The notes under the pieces are model-generated. The model did no database searches. It worked only from the letters and a program-made list of their open reading frames with translations, and was not told where the DNA came from. A DNA stretch of 64,000 nt from an uncultured Prevotellaceae bacterium (GTDB lineage: Bacteria; Bacteroidota; Bacteroidia; Bacteroidales; Bacteroidaceae): contig ONNV01000008.1 in assembly GCA_900319225.1 (NCBI GenBank), positions 1 to 64,000 of the forward strand. The letters run 5' to 3'. Made by a program: the position numbers and the translations under genes. Positions 14,003 to 49,841 of this stretch are shown piece after piece. Positions within the stretch are counted from its first letter, which is position 1; every line of letters starts with the position of its first letter.

Positions 14003-15841
14003 ATGAAAGAGAGTAGAGCCATAGAGCTGTTGTCACCCGCCAGGAACCTGGAATGCGGAATTGAGGCCATAAAGCATGGTGCCGATGCCGTATACATAGG
14101 TGCCGGCCGGTTCGGTGCACGCCAGGCTGCAGGTAACAGTGTGGATGATATCGCTCAGCTTGCGCGGCTTGCCCATTTTTACGGTGCCAAGGTATATGTT
14201 ACCGTAAATACCATACTGAAAGATTCTGAACTGGCCGATGCGGAGAAACTGATATGGCAGCTTTATGAGGCCGGTGCCGATGCGCTGCTCATTCAGGATA
14301 TGGCTGTCTTGCGCATGAAACTTCCACCCATAGCCCTGCATGCAAGCACCCAATGTGATGTGCGCAGCGTGGATAAGGTGCGTTTCCTGGCCGGATGCGG
14401 TTTTACCCGTGTGGTGCTGGCCCGTGAACTGTCTCTTGATGAGATCCGTGCCATACATGAGGCCTGCCCGGATGTGGAGCTTGAGTGTTTTGTACACGGT
14501 GCCCTGTGCGTGAGTTACAGCGGTCAGTGCTATGCGTCACAGTACTGCTTTGGTCGCAGCGCCAACCGTGGAGAGTGCGCCCAGTTCTGCAGGTTGAAAT
14601 TCGATCTGGTTGATTCTGACGGTAACGTCATTGTAAAGGGCAAGCACCTGCTCTCACTGCGTGACATGAACCGCATGGAGAGTCTTGAGCAGCTTATGGA
14701 TGCCGGTGTCTGCTCATTCAAGATAGAGGGACGTCTTAAAGAGACATCATACGTAAAGAATGTGACCGCCGCATACAGTGATGCCATTGGTAAGATACTG
14801 GAACGCCGCAATGATTATTACAGAGCCTCATCGGGCCATAGTGAATATATGTTCACCCCTGATGTGAACAAGAGTTTCAACCGCGGGTTCACTGACTATT
14901 TCCTGCATGGCCGCCGTCCTGATATATGGTCACCCAACACACCCAAATCCAAGGGTGAGCTGATGGGGCAGGTGCGTATCGCGGGCCGCGGATTCATTAC
15001 CGTTACTGGTAACAAACCGTTCCATAACGGCGACGGCCTGTGTTATATAGGGCAGGACGGCGAACTGAAAGGGTATCGTGTGAACCGCGTGGAGAACGGG
15101 CGCATATTCCTCTATCTGGAGAGCGGCGAGATGCCTACTGTTGCAGCCGGCACTGATGTCTACCGCAACTTTGACCAGGAGTTTGAGAAGACGCTTGCCA
15201 AGGAGAGCGCCGTAAGGAGAATCAGCACGGATATCCTGTTTGAGGAGACTGCCGCCGGCTACCGTGTGAGCATGACCGATGAGGACGGGAACACGGCATC
15301 GGCGTCACAGGAGTGGAAGAAAGAGGATGCCCGTACACCACAAGAGAACAATATCCGTACGCAGCTGACCAAACTGGGAGGTACCCGTTTTGAGGCCAAG
15401 ACGGTTGATATAAAGCTTGACGGTGACAGGTTCATCCCGTCATCACTGCTCTCTGACATGCGCCGTCAGGTGACTGAGCAGCTGGAGACTGTCCGCATGG
15501 ATTCATACGTGCGTCCGGCTGAGGGTGTGGCATCGGACGTAAAGGTGGAGTATCCTGTCCGTGAACTTACCTATCTGGGTAATGTGATGAACGCCCAGGC
15601 CCGCACTTTCTATACCGACCATGGCGTGCAGCGTGTTGATGACGCTTTTGAGAAAACTGCTCCTGAAAGTGCCACAGTCATGTTCTGCCGCCACTGCATA
15701 AAGAACTCCATGGGTCTCTGCACAAAGAACCGCATGGTGGACAAACAGCTGCGTGAACCGCTGTTCCTGGTCTCTCAGGACGGCCGCCGTTTCCGCCTGC
15801 GTTTTGACTGCGCTCACTGTCAGATGGAAATATTATACTAA
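14003..15841 (+). CDS. U32-family protein (RNA hydroxylation type, RlhA/TrhP-like)
   Basis: A 612-residue protein. The N-terminal U32 domain begins ELLSPARNLECGIEAIKHGADAVYIG and contains the Cys-rich SGQCYASQYCFGRSANRGECAQFCR stretch (about 173-197) that typifies the family. The C-terminal part carries CRHCIKNSMGLC and CAHC, additional Cys pairs. Family members RlhA and TrhP hydroxylate rRNA or tRNA, with the cysteines likely for an Fe-S centre; the length and extended C terminus are closer to RlhA. The peptidase name is historical. It follows the M13 pair by 2 bp. Confidence 0.82.
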   Translation: MKESRAIELLSPARNLECGIEAIKHGADAVYIGAGRFGARQAAGNSVDDIAQLARLAHFYGAKVYVTVNTILKDSELADAEKLIWQLYEAGADALLIQDMAVLRMKLPPIALHASTQCDVRSVDKVRFLAGCGFTRVVLARELSLDEIRAIHEACPDVELECFVHGALCVSYSGQCYASQYCFGRSANRGECAQFCRLKFDLVDSDGNVIVKGKHLLSLRDMNRMESLEQLMDAGVCSFKIEGRLKETSYVKNVTAAYSDAIGKILERRNDYYRASSGHSEYMFTPDVNKSFNRGFTDYFLHGRRPDIWSPNTPKSKGELMGQVRIAGRGFITVTGNKPFHNGDGLCYIGQDGELKGYRVNRVENGRIFLYLESGEMPTVAAGTDVYRNFDQEFEKTLAKESAVRRISTDILFEETAAGYRVSMTDEDGNTASASQEWKKEDARTPQENNIRTQLTKLGGTRFEAKTVDIKLDGDRFIPSSLLSDMRRQVTEQLETVRMDSYVRPAEGVASDVKVEYPVRELTYLGNVMNAQARTFYTDHGVQRVDDAFEKTAPESATVMFCRHCIKNSMGLCTKNRMVDKQLREPLFLVSQDGRRFRLRFDCAHCQMEILY

Positions 15842-15854
15842 CCAACATATTTAT

Positions 15855-17354
15855 ATGAGAAAAATTCTATCTGTTTTGCTGGTCCTGGTATGCATGACGG
15901 GCCATGCTGAGAGTATCAAGGTTGCGGTATCAATGGACAACGCCATCCAAACCAACGGGGGCCGATGGGAAGGATGGGGCACCAGCCTTTGCTGGTGGGC
16001 CAACCGCATCGGGTATAACGAAACTCTTACCGCCAAGAGCGCAGACCTGTTCTTTGACGCTCAGAAAGGCCTGGGCCTGAACATTATGCGCTACAACGTG
16101 GGCGGAGGCGATGACCCCACACACCATCACATAACACGCACCGACAGCGATGTGCCCGGCTGGATGTATATAGATGCGGACGGCCAGCGCCAGTATGACT
16201 ATACGGCCGATGCCCGCCAGCTCAATGTGGTGAAAGCCGCAATGAAAGCCGCAGGTCAGGACGCCTATCTGGAGATATTCAGCAACTCGCCCCCATACTT
16301 TATGACCAACAGTGGCTGTTCAACCGGTAATTTCAAGGCCGAGGAGAACAACATAAAGGACGATGAGTACGATGACTTTGCCGAGTATATGGCTCACGTA
16401 GCCAACTATATGACACGTGAAATGAAGCTCAAAGTAAAGAGCGTATCGCCCATGAACGAGCCCAACACCAACTACTGGCCCGCCATGAACTACAAGCAGG
16501 AGGGCTGTCACATTGATGCCGGTGAGTCCCAGTCCAAGCTGCTGGTGCTCACAAAGGAGGCCCTGAACCGTTACGGCCTTAAAGACATCATTCTCACCAC
16601 CAGTGATGAGACCAACCCCGGCAAGCAGATTGAGGAGATCCGTACCCTTACCCCTGATGCCCGTGCCGCCATAGACCGCATCAGCGTGCACACCTACGGC
16701 ACCAACAGCATCCGTGAGATGGGTCAGCTTGCCAAAGACGAGAAGATAAACCTCTGGATGAGTGAGGTGGACGGCAACGGAACCGCCGGTCAGAACGCCG
16801 GTGAGATGGCTGCCGGACTGTGGCTTGCTGAAAAGATAATAACTGATATCCAGGCCCTTGAGCCATCGGCCTGGGTACTCTGGCAGGTGATAGACACCCA
16901 CATCAGCAAGGACGGCTACATGGGCCGTCGTGACGGAGGTCCCCTGCGCACCCAGGGAGGCTATTGGGGTACCGCCTGTGCCAACCACGACACTGGTGAG
17001 ATCCTGCTCACTCAGAAGTACTACGCATTCGGCCAGTTCAGCCGCTACATCCGTCCCGGCGCCCAACTGATACTATGCCCCACCGAACGCCGCTCCGGCG
17101 TCAAAGCCCTGGCTGCAAAAGACAAAAAGACTCTGACGCTGGTATGCACAAATACTACATCAGAGCCAAAAGAAGTGGAATTCAATACAGAAGGTCTCAA
17201 ACTGAAAGGTCAGGTCCGTCAAATCCGAACCAGCGGCCAATTTTCCGATGGAGAGCATTGGGCCGAAACTACACTCCCTAAAGTGAACGGCTCAACTCTA
17301 GACGTAACCTTAGCTCCAAATTCTGTAACAACCTTTATTGTGTCCTGCAAGTAA
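15855..17354 (+). CDS. Exported GH30-family glycoside hydrolase
   Basis: A 499-residue protein. The ATG at 15855 gives a clean signal peptide (MRKILSVLLVLVCMTGHA). A TIM-barrel retaining hydrolase of the GH30 type is indicated by MNEPNTNYWP (acid/base Glu about 201) and WMSEVDGNGT (nucleophile Glu about 303). A small beta-sandwich C-terminal domain ends VTTFIVSCK. The N-terminal EGWGTSLCWWANRIG and MRYNVGGGDDP stretches resemble endo-beta-1,6-galactanase-like members, but the substrate is only a guess. No SusC/SusD genes are nearby, so it is not in a typical polysaccharide locus. Confidence 0.8.
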   Translation: MRKILSVLLVLVCMTGHAESIKVAVSMDNAIQTNGGRWEGWGTSLCWWANRIGYNETLTAKSADLFFDAQKGLGLNIMRYNVGGGDDPTHHHITRTDSDVPGWMYIDADGQRQYDYTADARQLNVVKAAMKAAGQDAYLEIFSNSPPYFMTNSGCSTGNFKAEENNIKDDEYDDFAEYMAHVANYMTREMKLKVKSVSPMNEPNTNYWPAMNYKQEGCHIDAGESQSKLLVLTKEALNRYGLKDIILTTSDETNPGKQIEEIRTLTPDARAAIDRISVHTYGTNSIREMGQLAKDEKINLWMSEVDGNGTAGQNAGEMAAGLWLAEKIITDIQALEPSAWVLWQVIDTHISKDGYMGRRDGGPLRTQGGYWGTACANHDTGEILLTQKYYAFGQFSRYIRPGAQLILCPTERRSGVKALAAKDKKTLTLVCTNTTSEPKEVEFNTEGLKLKGQVRQIRTSGQFSDGEHWAETTLPKVNGSTLDVTLAPNSVTTFIVSCK

Positions 17355-17379
17355 AGGCTTATATAATTTGCACTTAGTA

Positions 17380-17570
17380 GCAGGACTGACAGTTCTGGGA
17401 GCATAAGCGGCCGGCGTTAAGCGGAGAGCCCTGGAGGATCCCGTTAAGAACGGGGTTTGTTCGAGGAACGTTAGACCCCGAAGGGGCTATAAGGACGAGT
17501 TCGCCGTTTAGGGTCCGTAGGGGCTCGGAGTAGCCAGGACGGTGTTGTCTCCCGGAACTGTTAGTCCTGC
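17380..17570. ncRNA. Candidate structured RNA element, copy 1
   Basis: A 191-bp element closed by 22-base inverted ends (17380-17401 and 17549-17570) with two mismatched positions that remain G-U pairs. Inside lie a CCCGUU-AAG-AACGGG hairpin (17449-17463), a CCCC-GAA-GGGG hairpin (17476-17486), a GAAC/GUUC pairing around it, and a GGCU/AGCC stem near the 3' end. A second copy at 47209-47400 has diverged while keeping the same pairings. The plus-strand reading is preferred because a promoter-like TAATTTG ends 9 bases upstream, but strand is unproven. No open frame is conserved between the copies. It fills the GH30-mazG gap. The RNA class was not recognised. Confidence 0.65.
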
Positions 17571-17579
17571 GGCCCCCAA

Positions 17580-18365
17580 TTATAAACCTTTACTTTTGGC
17601 TTCGTTCCAGAGGGCGTCCATCTCATCCAGGGTCATGTCTTTGAGTTGACGGTTGTTGGATAGAGCGGCCTCCTCAACATAGTTGAAGCGGCGTATGAAC
17701 TTCTTGTTGGTGCGCTCCAGTGCGTCATCGGGATGGATCTTGTAGAGACGTGCCACGTTGATGATTGAGAACAGCAGGTCACCCAGCTCCTGCTCTGCTT
17801 TCTCCTTGTCATTGGCCGATATCTCCGCACTGAGTTCAGCATACTCCTCACGGACCTTATTCAATGCCCCCTGCGGAGTATCCCAGTCAAAACCCACATG
17901 AGCAGCCTTCTCCTGAATGCGGAAAGCCTTGATGATTGAGGGTAGGGCATCGGGCACACCGGCCAGCACACGCTTGTTGCCACCCTTCTCCTTGAGCTTG
18001 AGCTGCTCCCAGTTCTGGAGCACCTGCTCGGCGCCATCTACATTGGTGGTGCCGTATATGTGCGGGTGGCGGTATATTAGTTTGTCGCAGAGTTTGTCAC
18101 AAACGTCCTTGATATCGTAATCGCCGGTCTCGCTGCCAATCTTTGCGTAAAAGACTATGTGCAGCAGGACATCGCCCAACTCCTTTACGATATCGGGCTT
18201 GCTGTCTTTCATTATGGCATCACAGAGCTCAAAGACCTCCTCGATAGTATTCTGACGCAGTGAATCATTGGTCTGGACACTGTCCCAAGGGCACTTCTCC
18301 CTGAGCTCATCCATTATGTCAAGCAGGCGGCCGAACGCCTGCATCTTCTCTTCGCGTGTATGCAT
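17580..18365 (-). CDS. mazG: Nucleoside triphosphate pyrophosphohydrolase MazG
   Basis: A 261-residue protein with two MazG domains: EEVFELCDAI...KELGDVLLHIVFYAKIG (about 37-78) and EEYAELSAEI...EQELGDLLFSIINVARLY (about 170-205), holding the EExxE and ExxD metal-binding motifs. MazG hydrolyses NTPs to NMP and pyrophosphate and limits mutagenic or stress nucleotides. The start at 18365 (MHTREEKM) was chosen because a -7 box (18383-18390) lies within the longer frame. Divergent from valS. Confidence 0.92.
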   Translation of the reverse strand: MHTREEKMQAFGRLLDIMDELREKCPWDSVQTNDSLRQNTIEEVFELCDAIMKDSKPDIVKELGDVLLHIVFYAKIGSETGDYDIKDVCDKLCDKLIYRHPHIYGTTNVDGAEQVLQNWEQLKLKEKGGNKRVLAGVPDALPSIIKAFRIQEKAAHVGFDWDTPQGALNKVREEYAELSAEISANDKEKAEQELGDLLFSIINVARLYKIHPDDALERTNKKFIRRFNYVEEAALSNNRQLKDMTLDEMDALWNEAKSKGL

Positions 18366-18382
18366 ATTATTATATTTTAGCG

Positions 18383-18390
18383 CAAAATTA
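18383..18390 (-). promoter_or_regulatory. -7 box of mazG
   Basis: TAATTTTG on the minus strand, 17 bases upstream of the mazG ATG. Confidence 0.6.
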
Positions 18391-18403
18391 CACATTAAAT
18401 CAG

Positions 18404-18411
18404 TACCTTTG
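18404..18411 (+). promoter_or_regulatory. -7 box of valS
   Basis: TACCTTTG, 32 bases upstream of the valS ATG at 18444; the two divergent boxes are 13 bases apart. Confidence 0.6.
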
Positions 18412-18443
18412 CAGTCAATTTTAGACACAGGTAATATTTCTTT

Positions 18444-45661: not shown

Positions 45662-46733
45662 GATTATGACTTTGCTGGCCATGATGCTGGCAGTGGTCTC
45701 ATGCGAGAACTGGAAGGTTCAGATAGATACTCAGGTCCGTCGAGACGGATCCTGCATAAGGACGGTTACAGCAAACAAAGGATTCTGCCTGACTGAAGAT
45801 GAGGGCTGGGATCACACGGAGACAGTCACTCCGAAAGACTCTGCCAATGAGGACAATTATGTTGTCGTGGGATTTGACGAGAACAAGGAACCCATATTTG
45901 GACTGGACTCTACAAGGAAATATATAATAACGAGAGAGTTTGACCGTGTGGAGGATATGGGCTCATACCCGGCATTGAGGGCAAATGAGCAACCCGTCAC
46001 ATCGGCGGCATCACTGACCAAGAAGTTCAAGTGGTTCTATACGGACTATACCTTTACCGAGACGTTCAACGGTTGGGACAGCACCTTCAACATTCCCATT
46101 ACGGATTATATGAGCCGTGAGGAGGCCTCTTTCATGTGGTCCGGCTATCCTAATCTGATGGAAGGAATGACCGGTAATGAGATTGCCGAGGCCATTGACT
46201 CATATGAGGAGAAGGTTGAGATGTGGGAGTACGCCCTTGTCTGGGACATATGGTTCCAGTCCCTGGCAGAGTATTATGACTACATCAAGAATCCGCCCGT
46301 AGACCGTGAGACATTCCTCGCCATGCGTGACTCAATGGCCAGATATGCCTGGGATAAGGATGTTGAGCTGTTCCATGGACAGGAGAGGGGTGCATTCCGC
46401 GATTTCTTCAATACCGACACATATTTCAGTTCATTTGAAGGAAATGATGAACTGAATGAGGAACTTGATGCCCGTCAGGAGTATCTGATGAACCGTCTGG
46501 GTGCAGTGAGGTATCTGAAAGGTTCTTACACGCTCGGAATGCCCGGTAGTATCATCGATCCCGGACGCGGAGCGGTTGAGAATGGAGCGGTAGTCTACAA
46601 GTTTGACGGAGCGTGCCTTATCACGGGCGATTATGCCTTTACGGCAACATCCAGGGCTGCGAACGTGTGGGCGTTCCTGCTCTCGGGTTTAATACTGGTT
46701 GTGGCTGTAGGTAGCTTCTTTATAAAGCGCTAA
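45642..46733 (+). CDS. Lipoprotein with C-terminal membrane segment, unknown function
   Basis: A 363-residue protein. The signal peptide ends in a lipobox (LAVVSC, Cys about 21). The middle is rich in Glu, Trp and aromatic residues with no recognised domain. A hydrophobic segment near residues 340-360 (VWAFLLSGLILVVAVGSFFI) precedes a short KR end, so it would be held at both ends. It is the third gene of the ECF sigma operon and overlaps the anti-sigma-like gene. A sensor for or target of the sigma factor is an inference. Confidence 0.75.
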   Translation: MRVTSFKIMTLLAMMLAVVSCENWKVQIDTQVRRDGSCIRTVTANKGFCLTEDEGWDHTETVTPKDSANEDNYVVVGFDENKEPIFGLDSTRKYIITREFDRVEDMGSYPALRANEQPVTSAASLTKKFKWFYTDYTFTETFNGWDSTFNIPITDYMSREEASFMWSGYPNLMEGMTGNEIAEAIDSYEEKVEMWEYALVWDIWFQSLAEYYDYIKNPPVDRETFLAMRDSMARYAWDKDVELFHGQERGAFRDFFNTDTYFSSFEGNDELNEELDARQEYLMNRLGAVRYLKGSYTLGMPGSIIDPGRGAVENGAVVYKFDGACLITGDYAFTATSRAANVWAFLLSGLILVVAVGSFFIKR

Positions 46734-47131
46734 TCAGCGCGGCTCATAAGCAGCTTGCCGTGGCGGATGCCCTTGATTGATGTCATCTCATCGGCCAGTG
46801 CGGTAAGCAGACGGGCCTCACCCATGACGGTGCATACGTGCAGGCAGGTGCCCTCATTGATGTAGTGCTGCTGTGATGAAAGCACAAGATTCTGGTGGCG
46901 GATCTGTATATCCGATATGCGAGCGGATATATCGGTCCGCTGCTGGTCATATATGATGAATATGGTGCCGGCCACGATGTGGTTGCACTGCCACTTCTTC
47001 TCGGCCACGTTCTTCTCAACCAGAAACCGTATGGCCTGCGAACGGTTAGCGAAACCATCCTCCTTAACAAGTGAATCCAGCTGCTCCAGCAGCTCATCCT
47101 CAAGCGAAACTCCGAATCTCTTCAATGCCAT
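46730..47131 (-). CDS. NikR-like ribbon-helix-helix regulator with altered metal site
   Basis: A 133-residue protein. Residues 1-45 form a ribbon-helix-helix DNA-binding domain (KRFGVSLEDELLEQLDSLVKEDGFANRSQAIRFLV). The rest has the ACT-like fold of NikR (VAGTIFIIYDQQ, GEARLLTALADEMTSIKGIRHGKL). In NikR three His and one Cys bind nickel. By eye the His positions here are Ile, Gln and Tyr (DIQIRHQN, SSQQHYINEGTC), with only the Cys kept, so nickel sensing is doubtful. A -7 box (TAGATTTG, 47140-47147) ends 8 bases before the ATG. It converges on the lipoprotein gene with a 4-bp overlap. Confidence 0.85.
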   Translation of the reverse strand: MALKRFGVSLEDELLEQLDSLVKEDGFANRSQAIRFLVEKNVAEKKWQCNHIVAGTIFIIYDQQRTDISARISDIQIRHQNLVLSSQQHYINEGTCLHVCTVMGEARLLTALADEMTSIKGIRHGKLLMSRAD

Positions 47132-47147: not shown

Positions 47148-47208
47148 ATAAAAATCCAATTTGCACAGTACTTTTAGGGGGGTATCTGTATCTTTTCCCT
47201 TTGCAGTA

Positions 47209-47400
47209 GCAGGACTATCAGTTTGGGGAGCGTCAGTGCAGTGGCGTTAAGCGCAGGGCCTTGGAGGATCCCGTTAAGAACGGCGCATGTTTGACGAACG
47301 TTGCACACCGTAGGTGGGCAAAAGGAGGAGTTCGACGTTTAGGGTCCGGAAAGGTCCGGAGTAGCCACGGAACGTCGTCTCTCCAAACTGATAGTCCTGC
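47209..47400. ncRNA. Candidate structured RNA element, copy 2
   Basis: A 192-bp homologue of 17380-17570. Fully or nearly identical blocks: GGCGTTAAGCG, GGAGGATCCCGTTAAGAACG, GTTTAGGGTCCG and GGAGTAGCCA. The closing 22-base ends (47209-47230 and 47379-47400) differ from copy 1 at several places, but mostly as pairs (for example AUCAGUUUG with CAAACUGAU). The inner hairpin is CACC-GUA-GGUG where copy 1 has CCCC-GAA-GGGG. A TATCTTTT box at 47190-47197 could start transcription at about the first base. The element sits between the NikR-like gene and the cobalamin riboswitch. Confidence 0.65.
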
Positions 47401-47535
47401 GTTGTTTCCGATACAGATACCCCCTGAAAGTACTCCAAAAACGCCTGTTGAAAACTTCTCTTTTAGAAGGCGCCGGAAGTTATTAACAACCCGTATCAAC
47501 TTATCTTTTTTATAATATCTTTGCTCACGTCATTG

Positions 47536-47701
47536 GTTTCCATAGGGGTGGCACCCTGACTGGGATAATTTGGAATCCGGTGTAAGTCCGGGACAGTACC
47601 TGCTGCTGTAAATCCCTAATTATAAGTCCGATGCACTCTCTGCCACTGGCCTGACAGGCTGGGAAGGCGTACCGGACGGGATGAGTCAGAAGACCTGCCA
47701 A
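47536..47701 (+). promoter_or_regulatory. Cobalamin (B12) riboswitch of nrdDG
   Basis: Hallmarks of the B12 riboswitch are present in order: GAATCCGGTGTAAGTCCGGGAC with CAGTACCTGC (47573-47604), the B12 box GCCACTGG (47642-47649), CTGGGAAGGCG and the closing GATGAGTCAGAAGACCTGCC. It ends ~60 bases before the nrdD ATG; the stretch between (for example 47716-47741) can pair and could provide translational or transcriptional control. Binding of cobalamin is expected to switch off this B12-independent reductase, implying a B12-dependent class II enzyme elsewhere in the genome. Confidence 0.93.
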
Positions 47702-47759
47702 TGATGATGGATTACTGCACCTTGCAGGAGTACGAGGACGGGATAACATTTATTCTTTT

Positions 47760-49841
47760 ATGGAGACATATATAGTTAAACGTGATGGTAAACACGAGGT
47801 GTTTGCCATAGACAAGATTAAGGCTGCTATTGCCAAATCATTCCTTGCATCGGGAGCGTTTGCAACCGAGGAGGTTATGACCGGTATCCTGAGCCATCTG
47901 AACATTCAGAGCGGCATCAGCGTGGAGGAGATCCAGAACCAGGTCGAGGTGGCACTTATGGCCGAGGGCTATTATCAGGTTGCCAAGACGTACATGCTGT
48001 ACCGCAACCGTCACGCTGAGGACCGTGAGACTAAATCCAAGCTGGAATTCCTCATGGGCTATTGTCAGGCTGCCAATGCCGCCGAGGGCAGTAAGTTTGA
48101 CGCAAACGCCAATGTGGAGAACAAGAACATCGCAACTCTGATAGGTGAGTTGCCTAAGAAGGGCTTTATCCGTCTGAACCGTCGTCTGCTTTGCGACCGC
48201 ATCCGCCAGATGTTCGGTAAGGAGGTCGCAGACAAGTACATCAGCCTGCTGCATCAGCATTTCATCTACAAGAATGATGAGACCAACCTGGCTAACTACT
48301 GCGCCAGCATAACCATGTATCCGTGGCTGCTGGGTGGTACCAAGTCAATAGGCGGTAACGCTACACAGCCTACCAACCTCAAGTCATTCTGCGGTGGTTT
48401 CATCAACATGGTGTTTATGGTATCATCCATGCTGTCAGGTGCATGCGCTACACCTGAGTTCCTCATGTACATGAACTACTTCATTGAGAAGGAGTACGGT
48501 GAGGACTACTACAAGCGTGCCGATGAGGTTGTAGACCTGAGCCTTAAGAAACGTACCATTGACAAGATAATTACAGACTGCTTCCAGCAGGTGGTTTACT
48601 CCATCAACCAGCCTACCGGTGCACGTAACTTCCAGTCAGTATTCTGGAATATCAGCTACTATGACCGTTTCTACTTTGAGTCACTGTTCGGTGAGTTCCG
48701 TTTCCCCGACGGCGAGAAGCCTCATTGGGATTCTCTCTCATGGCTGCAGAAGCGTTTCATGAAGTGGTTCAACCAGGAGCGTCTGCGCTGCGTGCTCACA
48801 TTCCCGGTAGAGACCATGGCTCTGCTTACCGAGAACGGAGACGTTAAGGATAAGGAGTACGGAGACTTTACCGCAGAGATGTATGCCGAGGGTCACTCAT
48901 TCTTTACCTATGTAAGTGACAACGCTGACTCTCTGTCAAGCTGCTGCCGTCTCAGGAATGAGATTACCGATAACGGATTCTCATACACTCTGGGTGCAGG
49001 TGGCGTGAGCACCGGTTCCAAGAGCGTGCTTACCATCAACCTGAACCGCTGCGTACAGTACGCACAGCGTATGGGTATACCTTATCAGAATTATATTGAG
49101 GATGTAGTTGACCTTATGCATAAGGTACAGCTGGCATATAACGAGAACCTTAAGGAGCTCCAGAAGAAGGGCATGCTGCCTCTGTTTGATTCAGGCTACA
49201 TCAACATCGGCCGTCAGTATCTGACTATCGGTGTAAACGGTCTGGTTGAGAGCGCCGAGTTCCTGGGTATCGAGATCAGTGACAACCCGCGTTACACTGA
49301 GTATGTGCAGACCGTTCTGGGTATAGTTGAGAAACTGAACAAGAAGTACCGCTCCAAGGGCGTCATGTTCAACTGTGAGATGATTCCGGCCGAGAACGTT
49401 GGTGTCAAGAACGCCAAGTGGGATAAGGAGGACGGCTATGTTGTACCGCGTGACTGCTACAACAGCTACTTCTATAAGGTGGAGGATACCACACTGAACG
49501 TAATTGACCGTTTCCGTCTGCACGGTGTCAAGTACATTGAGCACCTGACCGGTGGATCTGCACTGCACTGCAATCTTGAGGAGCATCTGTCAAAGGCCCA
49601 GTACCGCCAGCTGCTCAAGGTGGCTGCACAGGAGGGTTGCAACTACTTTACGTTCAACATCCCCAACACCATCTGCAACGACTGCGGAACCATTGACAAG
49701 CGTTATCTTAAGGAGTGCCCGCACTGCCATTCAACCAACGTGGATTATCTGACACGTATCATCGGTTACATGAAGCGCGTGAGCAACTTCTCTGCCGCCC
49801 GTCAGGTTGAGGCATCAAAGCGTTATTACGCTACTCTGTAA
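47760..49841 (+). CDS. nrdD: Anaerobic (class III) ribonucleoside-triphosphate reductase
   Basis: A 693-residue glycyl-radical enzyme. The N-terminal ATP-cone region (VKRDGKHEVFAIDKIKAAIAKSF) binds the allosteric nucleotide. The C terminus has the zinc cysteines CNDC (about 641-644) and CPHC (about 655-658) followed by the glycyl-radical motif RIIGYM (Gly about 668). It makes dNTPs without oxygen, which fits a strict anaerobe. A cobalamin riboswitch precedes it and the activase gene follows with no gap. Confidence 0.96.
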   Translation: METYIVKRDGKHEVFAIDKIKAAIAKSFLASGAFATEEVMTGILSHLNIQSGISVEEIQNQVEVALMAEGYYQVAKTYMLYRNRHAEDRETKSKLEFLMGYCQAANAAEGSKFDANANVENKNIATLIGELPKKGFIRLNRRLLCDRIRQMFGKEVADKYISLLHQHFIYKNDETNLANYCASITMYPWLLGGTKSIGGNATQPTNLKSFCGGFINMVFMVSSMLSGACATPEFLMYMNYFIEKEYGEDYYKRADEVVDLSLKKRTIDKIITDCFQQVVYSINQPTGARNFQSVFWNISYYDRFYFESLFGEFRFPDGEKPHWDSLSWLQKRFMKWFNQERLRCVLTFPVETMALLTENGDVKDKEYGDFTAEMYAEGHSFFTYVSDNADSLSSCCRLRNEITDNGFSYTLGAGGVSTGSKSVLTINLNRCVQYAQRMGIPYQNYIEDVVDLMHKVQLAYNENLKELQKKGMLPLFDSGYINIGRQYLTIGVNGLVESAEFLGIEISDNPRYTEYVQTVLGIVEKLNKKYRSKGVMFNCEMIPAENVGVKNAKWDKEDGYVVPRDCYNSYFYKVEDTTLNVIDRFRLHGVKYIEHLTGGSALHCNLEEHLSKAQYRQLLKVAAQEGCNYFTFNIPNTICNDCGTIDKRYLKECPHCHSTNVDYLTRIIGYMKRVSNFSAARQVEASKRYYATL

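Follow-up and report, generated by a model that had tools for sequence, protein, structure and literature searches.

The DNA analysed here (the window) is a stretch of 64,000 nucleotides, positions 1 to 64,000 of the forward strand of contig ONNV01000008.1 (assembly GCA_900319225.1), from an uncultured Prevotellaceae bacterium. Two copies of a structured palindromic element of ~200 nt were read directly on its + strand (Table 1), where an earlier note on this DNA had placed them. Copy 1 is flanked by convergent gene ends, those of a GH30-like open reading frame (ORF; 15753-17354, + strand) and a MazG ORF (17580-18428, − strand), while copy 2 is flanked by divergent genes, a nikR-like gene (46730-47131, − strand) and one for an NRDD-family reductase (47760-49841, + strand). 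The earlier note took the pair for a structured RNA class in two copies; the structure, the non-protein nature and the paired changes proved real, while the two-copy RNA class did not stand, as the genome itself holds 13 matches and the element is a dispersed repeat. Overall, we consider it probable (roughly two chances in three) that the element represents a new family of dispersed, non-autonomous palindromic repeats of Bacteroidales, comparable to repetitive extragenic palindromes (REPs), to ERIC (enterobacterial repetitive intergenic consensus, an imperfect palindromic intergenic repeat of enterobacteria) and to miniature inverted-repeat transposable elements (MITEs). The family is unusual for its elaborate, conserved internal architecture.

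The predicted fold is rod-like, with a closing stem (P1), short helices split by the internal loops CGTTAAG/TTTAG, and a central hairpin. Folding energies lay beyond all 200 dinucleotide shuffles for both copy 1 (z −6.96) and copy 2 (z −7.23). The closing stem of 22 bp described in the earlier note was recovered exactly in both copies by folding, the conserved blocks GGAGGATCCCGTTAAGAACG and GTTTAGGGTCCG of copy 1 have counterparts in copy 2, and the inner hairpin is present as claimed, CCCC-GAA-GGGG in copy 1 and CACC-GTA-GGTG in copy 2. Among the 66 consensus pairs compared between the copies, 44 were identical and 11 had changed on both sides with pairing kept, which bears out the claim of compensatory changes; 7 showed one-sided changes and were still paired, 3 were broken and 1 was skipped (gaps). 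In both window copies the symmetry does not stop at the 22-bp stem, which lies within a longer inverted repeat (see below).

Paired changes were quantified in 27 copies from the genus and in 38 diverse sequences. The 27-copy sets leave out L003, L006, L012, L018, L019, L032, L033, L035 and L044-L048, which were partial, rearranged, duplicate or very diverged; L004 was left out of the alignments and takes the place of L027 in the sets used for promoters and for the outer repeat and TTGCAG motif. In the inner core of the genus copies, 21 of 42 pairs had changed on both sides, compared to 9.3 (sd 1.7) in 500 shuffles, and 97.4% of cells paired, compared to 36-51% with partners slid by 1-3 columns; these measures were above all 500 shuffles and all slid controls. 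The P1 sequence varies widely between genus copies yet remains nearly perfectly paired, and the internal-loop letters are invariant within the genus. Copies at the same site also differed by more both-side pair changes than expected if the two sides were independent (L015/L020, 11 vs 3.2; L029/L034, 6 vs 1.8; L031/L036, 12 vs 3.9; L013/L016, 2 vs 0.1). In the 38 diverse sequences, four of five measures were above all shuffles, while further pair types were no more numerous than chance (220 of 500 shuffles reached the count); 18 columns of the central module were invariant in this set, which was collected by motif.

The given strand folded better than its complement in 26 of the 27 genus copies (mean gain 15 kcal/mol), and the alignment fold was likewise deeper on it (−136.5 vs −116.7 for the complement). 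One strand is therefore the likelier folded form, be it RNA or single-stranded DNA.

A search of the whole window with Rfam 15 (4227 families) at the gathering cut-offs returned only cobalamin, 5S and tRNA matches and none at the element, in agreement with the earlier note, which had not recognised the class. In a relaxed scan the best scores were 14.9 bits for copy 1 (cut-off 37) and 10.9 bits for copy 2 (cut-off 60), and nothing was found at the element in nine distant loci. A sub-threshold match to whalefall-1 RNA (25.3 bits, cut-off 37) lies away from the element in Labilibaculum (L125:1706-1740). The cobalamin riboswitch (47517-47716), 3' of copy 2, precedes the ORF of the reductase, an ATP-cone/NRDD-family ribonucleotide reductase. 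Papers are cited here by PubMed Central (PMC) number. Structured RNA candidates of Bacteroidota, namely Bacteroidales-1, Bacteroides-1 and Flavo-1, are tabulated in PMC2864571; they share phylum and structured nature with the element, but none matched at it at gathering or relaxed thresholds. The Rfam result leaves out Bacteroides-2 and GUCCY-hairpin, which carry no Rfam number in that table. We did not recognise the element family in the excerpts of the literature searched, in which the palindromic Bacteroidetes candidates of PMC8040213 may list it unlabelled.

Within its own genome, the element gave 13 matches by blastn with copy 1, some of them fragments at contig ends. A covariance model built from the 27 genus copies (R1) also gave 13 matches at E ≤0.1, of which 12 reached E ≤0.001; the blastn and R1 matches coincide only in part. 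By blastn over 61 genomes (its own and 60 relatives), the element was found in 25, all of one genus (24 of the 36 other genus genomes), and in none of 24 genomes from other genera. A covariance-model search, which the earlier note had suggested, gave matches across Bacteroidales, often in several copies, and weaker ones elsewhere in the phylum. R1 detected the element in 10 of 393 order genomes, which represent 10 of 207 genera, and R2, a model of the central module built from the 38 diverse sequences, detected it in 24 of 295 genomes from the order and in 18 of 395 from the phylum; the E-values are rough, with stricter filters in searches over 40 genomes, and R2 and its statistics lean to one motif because the diverse sequences were picked by it. 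Three order genomes had at least 10 R2 matches (G201, with 13 elements, G283 and G321). A strict central-module pattern matched 89 stretches in the species collection; the 80 titles listed were all from Bacteroidota and included Draconibacterium, Labilibaculum, Marinifilum, Ancylomarina, Carboxylicivirga and rumen genomes. We take the marine genera to belong to Bacteroidales in the GTDB sense. Cargo of a phage or plasmid was rejected as an explanation, as the strict pattern had 0 matches in viral contigs and copy 1 had no blastn match in plasmids or phages. Tandem runs were observed in G638 (five copies, 330-464 nt apart; L328:7109-8710) and in Marinifilum (three copies, 328-340 nt apart; L131:6335-7183).

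The element is mostly intergenic, with only 7 of 105 matches overlapping a predicted ORF of at least 90 aa (ORFs called mechanically). The central module lies at median distances of 230 and 194 bp from the nearest predicted ORFs. For the 102 matches with both flanks, the upstream ORF was on the same strand in 59 and the opposite in 43, and the downstream ORF in 58 and 44, which shows no clear orientation bias; these counts are not independent because the matches include orthologous and same-contig copies. No recurring neighbour protein family was found near 80 loci among the 14 ORF clusters listed. The largest of these clusters consisted of frames over the element itself, one was of an ABC-type ATPase (8 loci), and several reflected orthologous neighbourhoods (4 loci); a linked transposase was rejected on the same clusters. 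Upstream of the 27 genus copies, a simple promoter consensus was complete in 0 regions (17 of 5000 random windows) and its −7 part was present in 1 (150 of 5000), both at background level. In G201, six copies that all lie on the same strand (L325:5204-14454) are interspersed with small modules, namely a DUF4143 ATPase, a HigB toxin with a helix-turn-helix (HTH) protein, a DUF234 ATPase, an HTH protein with a 119-aa partner, and Fic; the DUF234 module is duplicated with its flanking element copies at 95% identity.

The position of the element differs between relatives. The genes beside copy 1 and copy 2 were matched in 36 and 26 of 37 genus genomes, and by blastn with 27 element copies the element was found only in its own genome, both at the 30 loci of the copy-1 gene and at the 27 loci (from 26 genomes) of the copy-2 gene; each comparison was anchored on one flanking gene and covered up to ~1.5 kb of DNA beyond it, and very diverged copies could be missed. 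Among the loci listed beside the copy-1 gene, L208 had a different core within similar arms and L209 only a REP-like palindrome, and a relative's spacer beside the copy-2 gene (L239) also held a different core.

In 17 of 27 genus copies, both window copies among them, the 80 bases on either side add an outer inverted repeat that no more than 2 of 200 shuffles equalled; for each window copy, 0 of 200 shuffles reached the flank-to-flank score. A pattern search for the outer-arm sequence in 8 genus genomes, with 15 arm pairs read, showed the same arms around spacers of 9 (two pairs with the same flanks), 85, 128-142, 214 and 218-229 nt. The five arm pairs with spacers of 218-229 nt contain the element, while the other spacers hold a second core type or almost nothing, suggesting that the element inserts into existing palindromes. 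The 9-nt form may be a deletion product because it keeps GTAGTTTCA, which also ends other forms. The second core (85-142 nt, of the GGAAACC...GTAGTTTCA type; L376, L378, L379, L381, L394, L396 and L399) is predicted to form several hairpins and had no Rfam match at E 0.5.

In the genus copies the central hairpin is set between TGTTYGASG and GGASGAGTT (S = C or G), and a TTGCAG motif stands 5' of P1 in 23 of 27. Copies from other genera share the rod plan with different helix sequences, and a separate AT-rich hairpin often comes after the rod (by eye). One copy from the genome of the window (L006:1453-1647) has an additional short palindromic stretch in its 3' half, and two others are interrupted close to the base of the central hairpin (L044:1-180/L046:2640-3029 and L045:2540-2733/L047:1-230), with contigs ending within the insert. 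That an autonomous form might carry a gene within its central hairpin was considered and rejected, as the inserted ends of these two interrupted copies differ and look like insertion sequences (IS) by eye, perhaps two different ones.

Table 1 Features of the two element copies in the window
Feature	Position	Strand	Basis or remark
Element copy 1	17378..17573	+	sequence read directly, blastn, R1, fold
Copy 1, closing stem P1, 5' arm (22 bp)	17380..17401	+	predicted fold
Copy 1, closing stem P1, 3' arm	17549..17570	+	predicted fold
Copy 1, conserved block GGAGGATCCCGTTAAGAACG (helix strand and internal-loop strand)	17433..17452	+	
Copy 1, conserved block GTTTAGGGTCCG (opposite strand of GGAGGATCCCGTTAAGAACG helix and loop)	17506..17517	+	
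Copy 1, central hairpin TTAGACCCC-GAA-GGGGCTA (inner CCCC-GAA-GGGG)	17471..17489	+	
Copy 1, outer inverted repeat (imperfect), left arm	17353..17370	.	boundaries by eye
Copy 1, outer inverted repeat (imperfect), right arm	17577..17591	.	boundaries by eye; overlaps MazG ORF stop codon
Element copy 2	47207..47402	+	sequence read directly, blastn, R1, fold
Copy 2, closing stem P1, 5' arm (22 bp)	47209..47230	+	predicted fold
Copy 2, closing stem P1, 3' arm	47379..47400	+	predicted fold
Copy 2, central hairpin TTGCACACC-GTA-GGTGGGCAA (inner CACC-GTA-GGTG)	47301..47321	+	
Copy 2, outer inverted repeat, left arm (AGTACTTTTAGGGGGGTATCTGTATC)	47167..47192	.	symmetry tested by shuffles
Copy 2, outer inverted repeat, right arm (GATACAGATACCCCCTGAAAGTACT)	47410..47434	.	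symmetry tested by shuffles
TTGCAG motif shortly before copy 2 P1	47201..47206	+	absent from copy 1

Candidate mobilising enzymes were sought across the carriers. Matches to Y1 transposases occurred in 31 of 41 relatives; among carriers from other genera, 17 of 24 had one and 7 had none (G201 among them), and none was found in G007, a genus member that is 97% complete with 14 element matches. Completeness is listed at 99% for G363 (one contig) and G201 (6 contigs), and genome gaps limit each such absence. Around 60 Y1 loci (~1.5 kb on each side), part of a larger number of Y1 matches, R2 gave only two scores at chance level (E 1.4 and 4), and R1 gave none at E 5 on 30 of them. The one Y1 gene of the window's own genome lies between two palindromes of the GGGGACGGTTC type (L100:1030-1100 and 1950-2040), which belong to a separate REP-like family that is also present in the copy-1 spacer of relatives. 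The reverse transcriptase domain RVT_1 was found in 5 of 16 carriers and had no match in 11. A group II intron or other reverse transcriptase element was rejected on this ground and because an intron model reached only 8.7 bits (cut-off 49), on the opposite strand, at copy 1. As for MITE features, the outer inverted repeat is present in 17 of 27 copies with varying arms, and neither an autonomous partner nor a target duplication was found.

The element occurs in many copies, was not found at the corresponding places in relatives, and shows no recurring neighbour among the listed clusters, no clear orientation bias and no promoter enrichment; it therefore resembles a small mobile element more than two genes for non-coding RNA. 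Under the mechanism we propose, a single strand in its folded form, be it DNA (extruded or on the lagging strand) or RNA from read-through transcription, would be recognised by an enzyme acting in trans, which would copy it to new places. Such recognition would preserve the internal loops and the pairing, and template-switch repair may in addition keep the two long stem arms matched as they change. The host may also gain from the element, for example in mRNA processing or nucleoid binding.

Several observations weigh against a dispersed mobile repeat. No mobilising enzyme was found for the element (by way of the listed ORF clusters, Y1 and RVT_1), and no insertion with clean junctions or target duplication was found in the compared loci. 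The remark in the earlier note that neither a target duplication nor a transposase is seen holds only in the sense that the search found none; its own alternative, transposon ends that are not transcribed, is possible, and no transposase was linked to the element. The compared spacers differ by replacement and not by a simple interruption, and since each site was anchored on a single flanking gene, a rearrangement or a contig end can mimic absence. Both flanks can be aligned in 13 pairs among 31 genus copies, and many copies are therefore old. The outer inverted repeat was not detected in 10 of 27 genus copies (80-base flanks, 200 shuffles), and the arms are thus not a constant part. Two observations that speak for the proposal carry limits. 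G-U cells outnumber A-C cells in the 27 genus copies (inner core, 125 vs 8; P1, 15 vs 6) and, with a refitted structure, in the diverse set (43 vs 17), in favour of the given strand, but the excess is partly built in because the folding program counts G-U as a pair; with the author-supplied structure the diverse set had 16 of each. One central pair was C-G in 23 and G-C in 15 of the diverse sequences with its two sides matching in 38 of 38, and only this matching is informative because the collection patterns allowed just C or G there. Finally, and again on the opposing side, selection for an RNA function would also account for an intricate fold kept across the order.

The covariation itself has another possible source, since part of that in the stems may reflect template-switch repair of quasi-palindromes and not selection on RNA. 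A stronger form, in which such repair and gene conversion between copies explain most of the paired changes with little selection on the fold, has in our view a small but real chance of being correct. It would account for the widely different and nearly perfectly paired P1, for L029 and L030, which have nearly the same core and different P1 arms (both-side changes in 8 of 64 pairs, differences in 3 of 64 unpaired positions), and for L013 and L016, which differ at one site mainly in one block of the central module. The invariant internal-loop letters, the 18 invariant columns of the motif-collected set and the matching sides of the central pair argue against it. The conserved fold, the 13 matches in one genome and the better folding of one strand would also suit a family of small RNA genes acting in trans that reached many copies by duplication and was retained for a regulatory role; FopS, a 14-copy small RNA family of Bacteroides thetaiotaomicron, provides a precedent in a related family (PMC11697453). 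However, FopS RNAs are transcribed from canonical promoters and only ~65-70 nt long (PMC11697453), whereas promoters upstream of the element were at background level and the element was not found at corresponding places in relatives, which makes this explanation unlikely. We regard a cis-acting mRNA element (a stabiliser, processing site or attenuator) selected locus by locus as rather improbable: its strong fold and closeness to genes would fit, but no clear orientation preference was seen (in matches that are not independent), no neighbour recurs among the listed clusters, and the two window copies lie between convergent and divergent genes.

The closest published description found is that of Bacteroidetes TnpA-REP (RAYT) subclass 2.6, whose genes are flanked by atypical structures with copies elsewhere (PMC6006769), a likeness judged from the description and not letter by letter. 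The shared traits are multi-copy intergenic palindromes, a strand-specific hairpin and occurrence in Bacteroidetes. However, REPs are 20-40 nt long (PMC3733652), compared to ~200 nt with repeated internal loops for the element. That the element is the cognate atypical structure moved by this Y1 enzyme is very unlikely despite the frequency of Y1 genes, as the 60 loci held no confident element (further Y1 matches existing), several carriers, G201 included, had no Y1 match and the genome's own Y1 gene is flanked by a different palindrome. The alternating G201 copies and the duplicated module are reminiscent of integron-like recombination sites that shuffle gene cassettes; most other mapped stretches have single copies or copies among ordinary genes, and no integron box layout was recognised (by eye; no tyrosine recombinase search was made), such that this explanation seems extremely unlikely. 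ERIC and RU-1, the latter an enterobacterial repeat of 127 bp (PMC2759123), are similarly imperfect palindromes of 100-200 nt scattered between genes with no gene of their own, but belong to another clade and differ in sequence, while the element family spans many genera with invariant internal loops. A Porphyromonas MITE with a minisatellite (PMC4596501) is also small, non-autonomous and from Bacteroidales; in contrast to it, no terminal repeat of a known IS or target duplication was found for the element, whose arms vary or are missing.

Returning to a dispersed palindromic repeat, a family that spans the order under such strong structural constraint, and that was matched neither in Rfam 15 nor in the literature searched, implies that common gut and marine bacteria have a protein that recognises the element or an enzyme that mobilises it. 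A more far-reaching proposal, which we consider doubtful, is a new class of mobile element that would transpose by way of an elaborately folded molecule, RNA or one strand of DNA, in which the repeated internal loops of the rod would serve as protein sites. Such an element would tend to lodge in the middle of palindromes, independently of Y1 transposases and reverse transcriptases, and in some genomes would bracket toxin-antitoxin and Fic modules as exchangeable cassettes. The element may explain some assembly breaks, as several copies in its own genome lie at contig ends. It also provides a natural test of whether stem covariation arises by template switching or by selection, and a defined substrate with which to find the recognition protein or mobilising enzyme.
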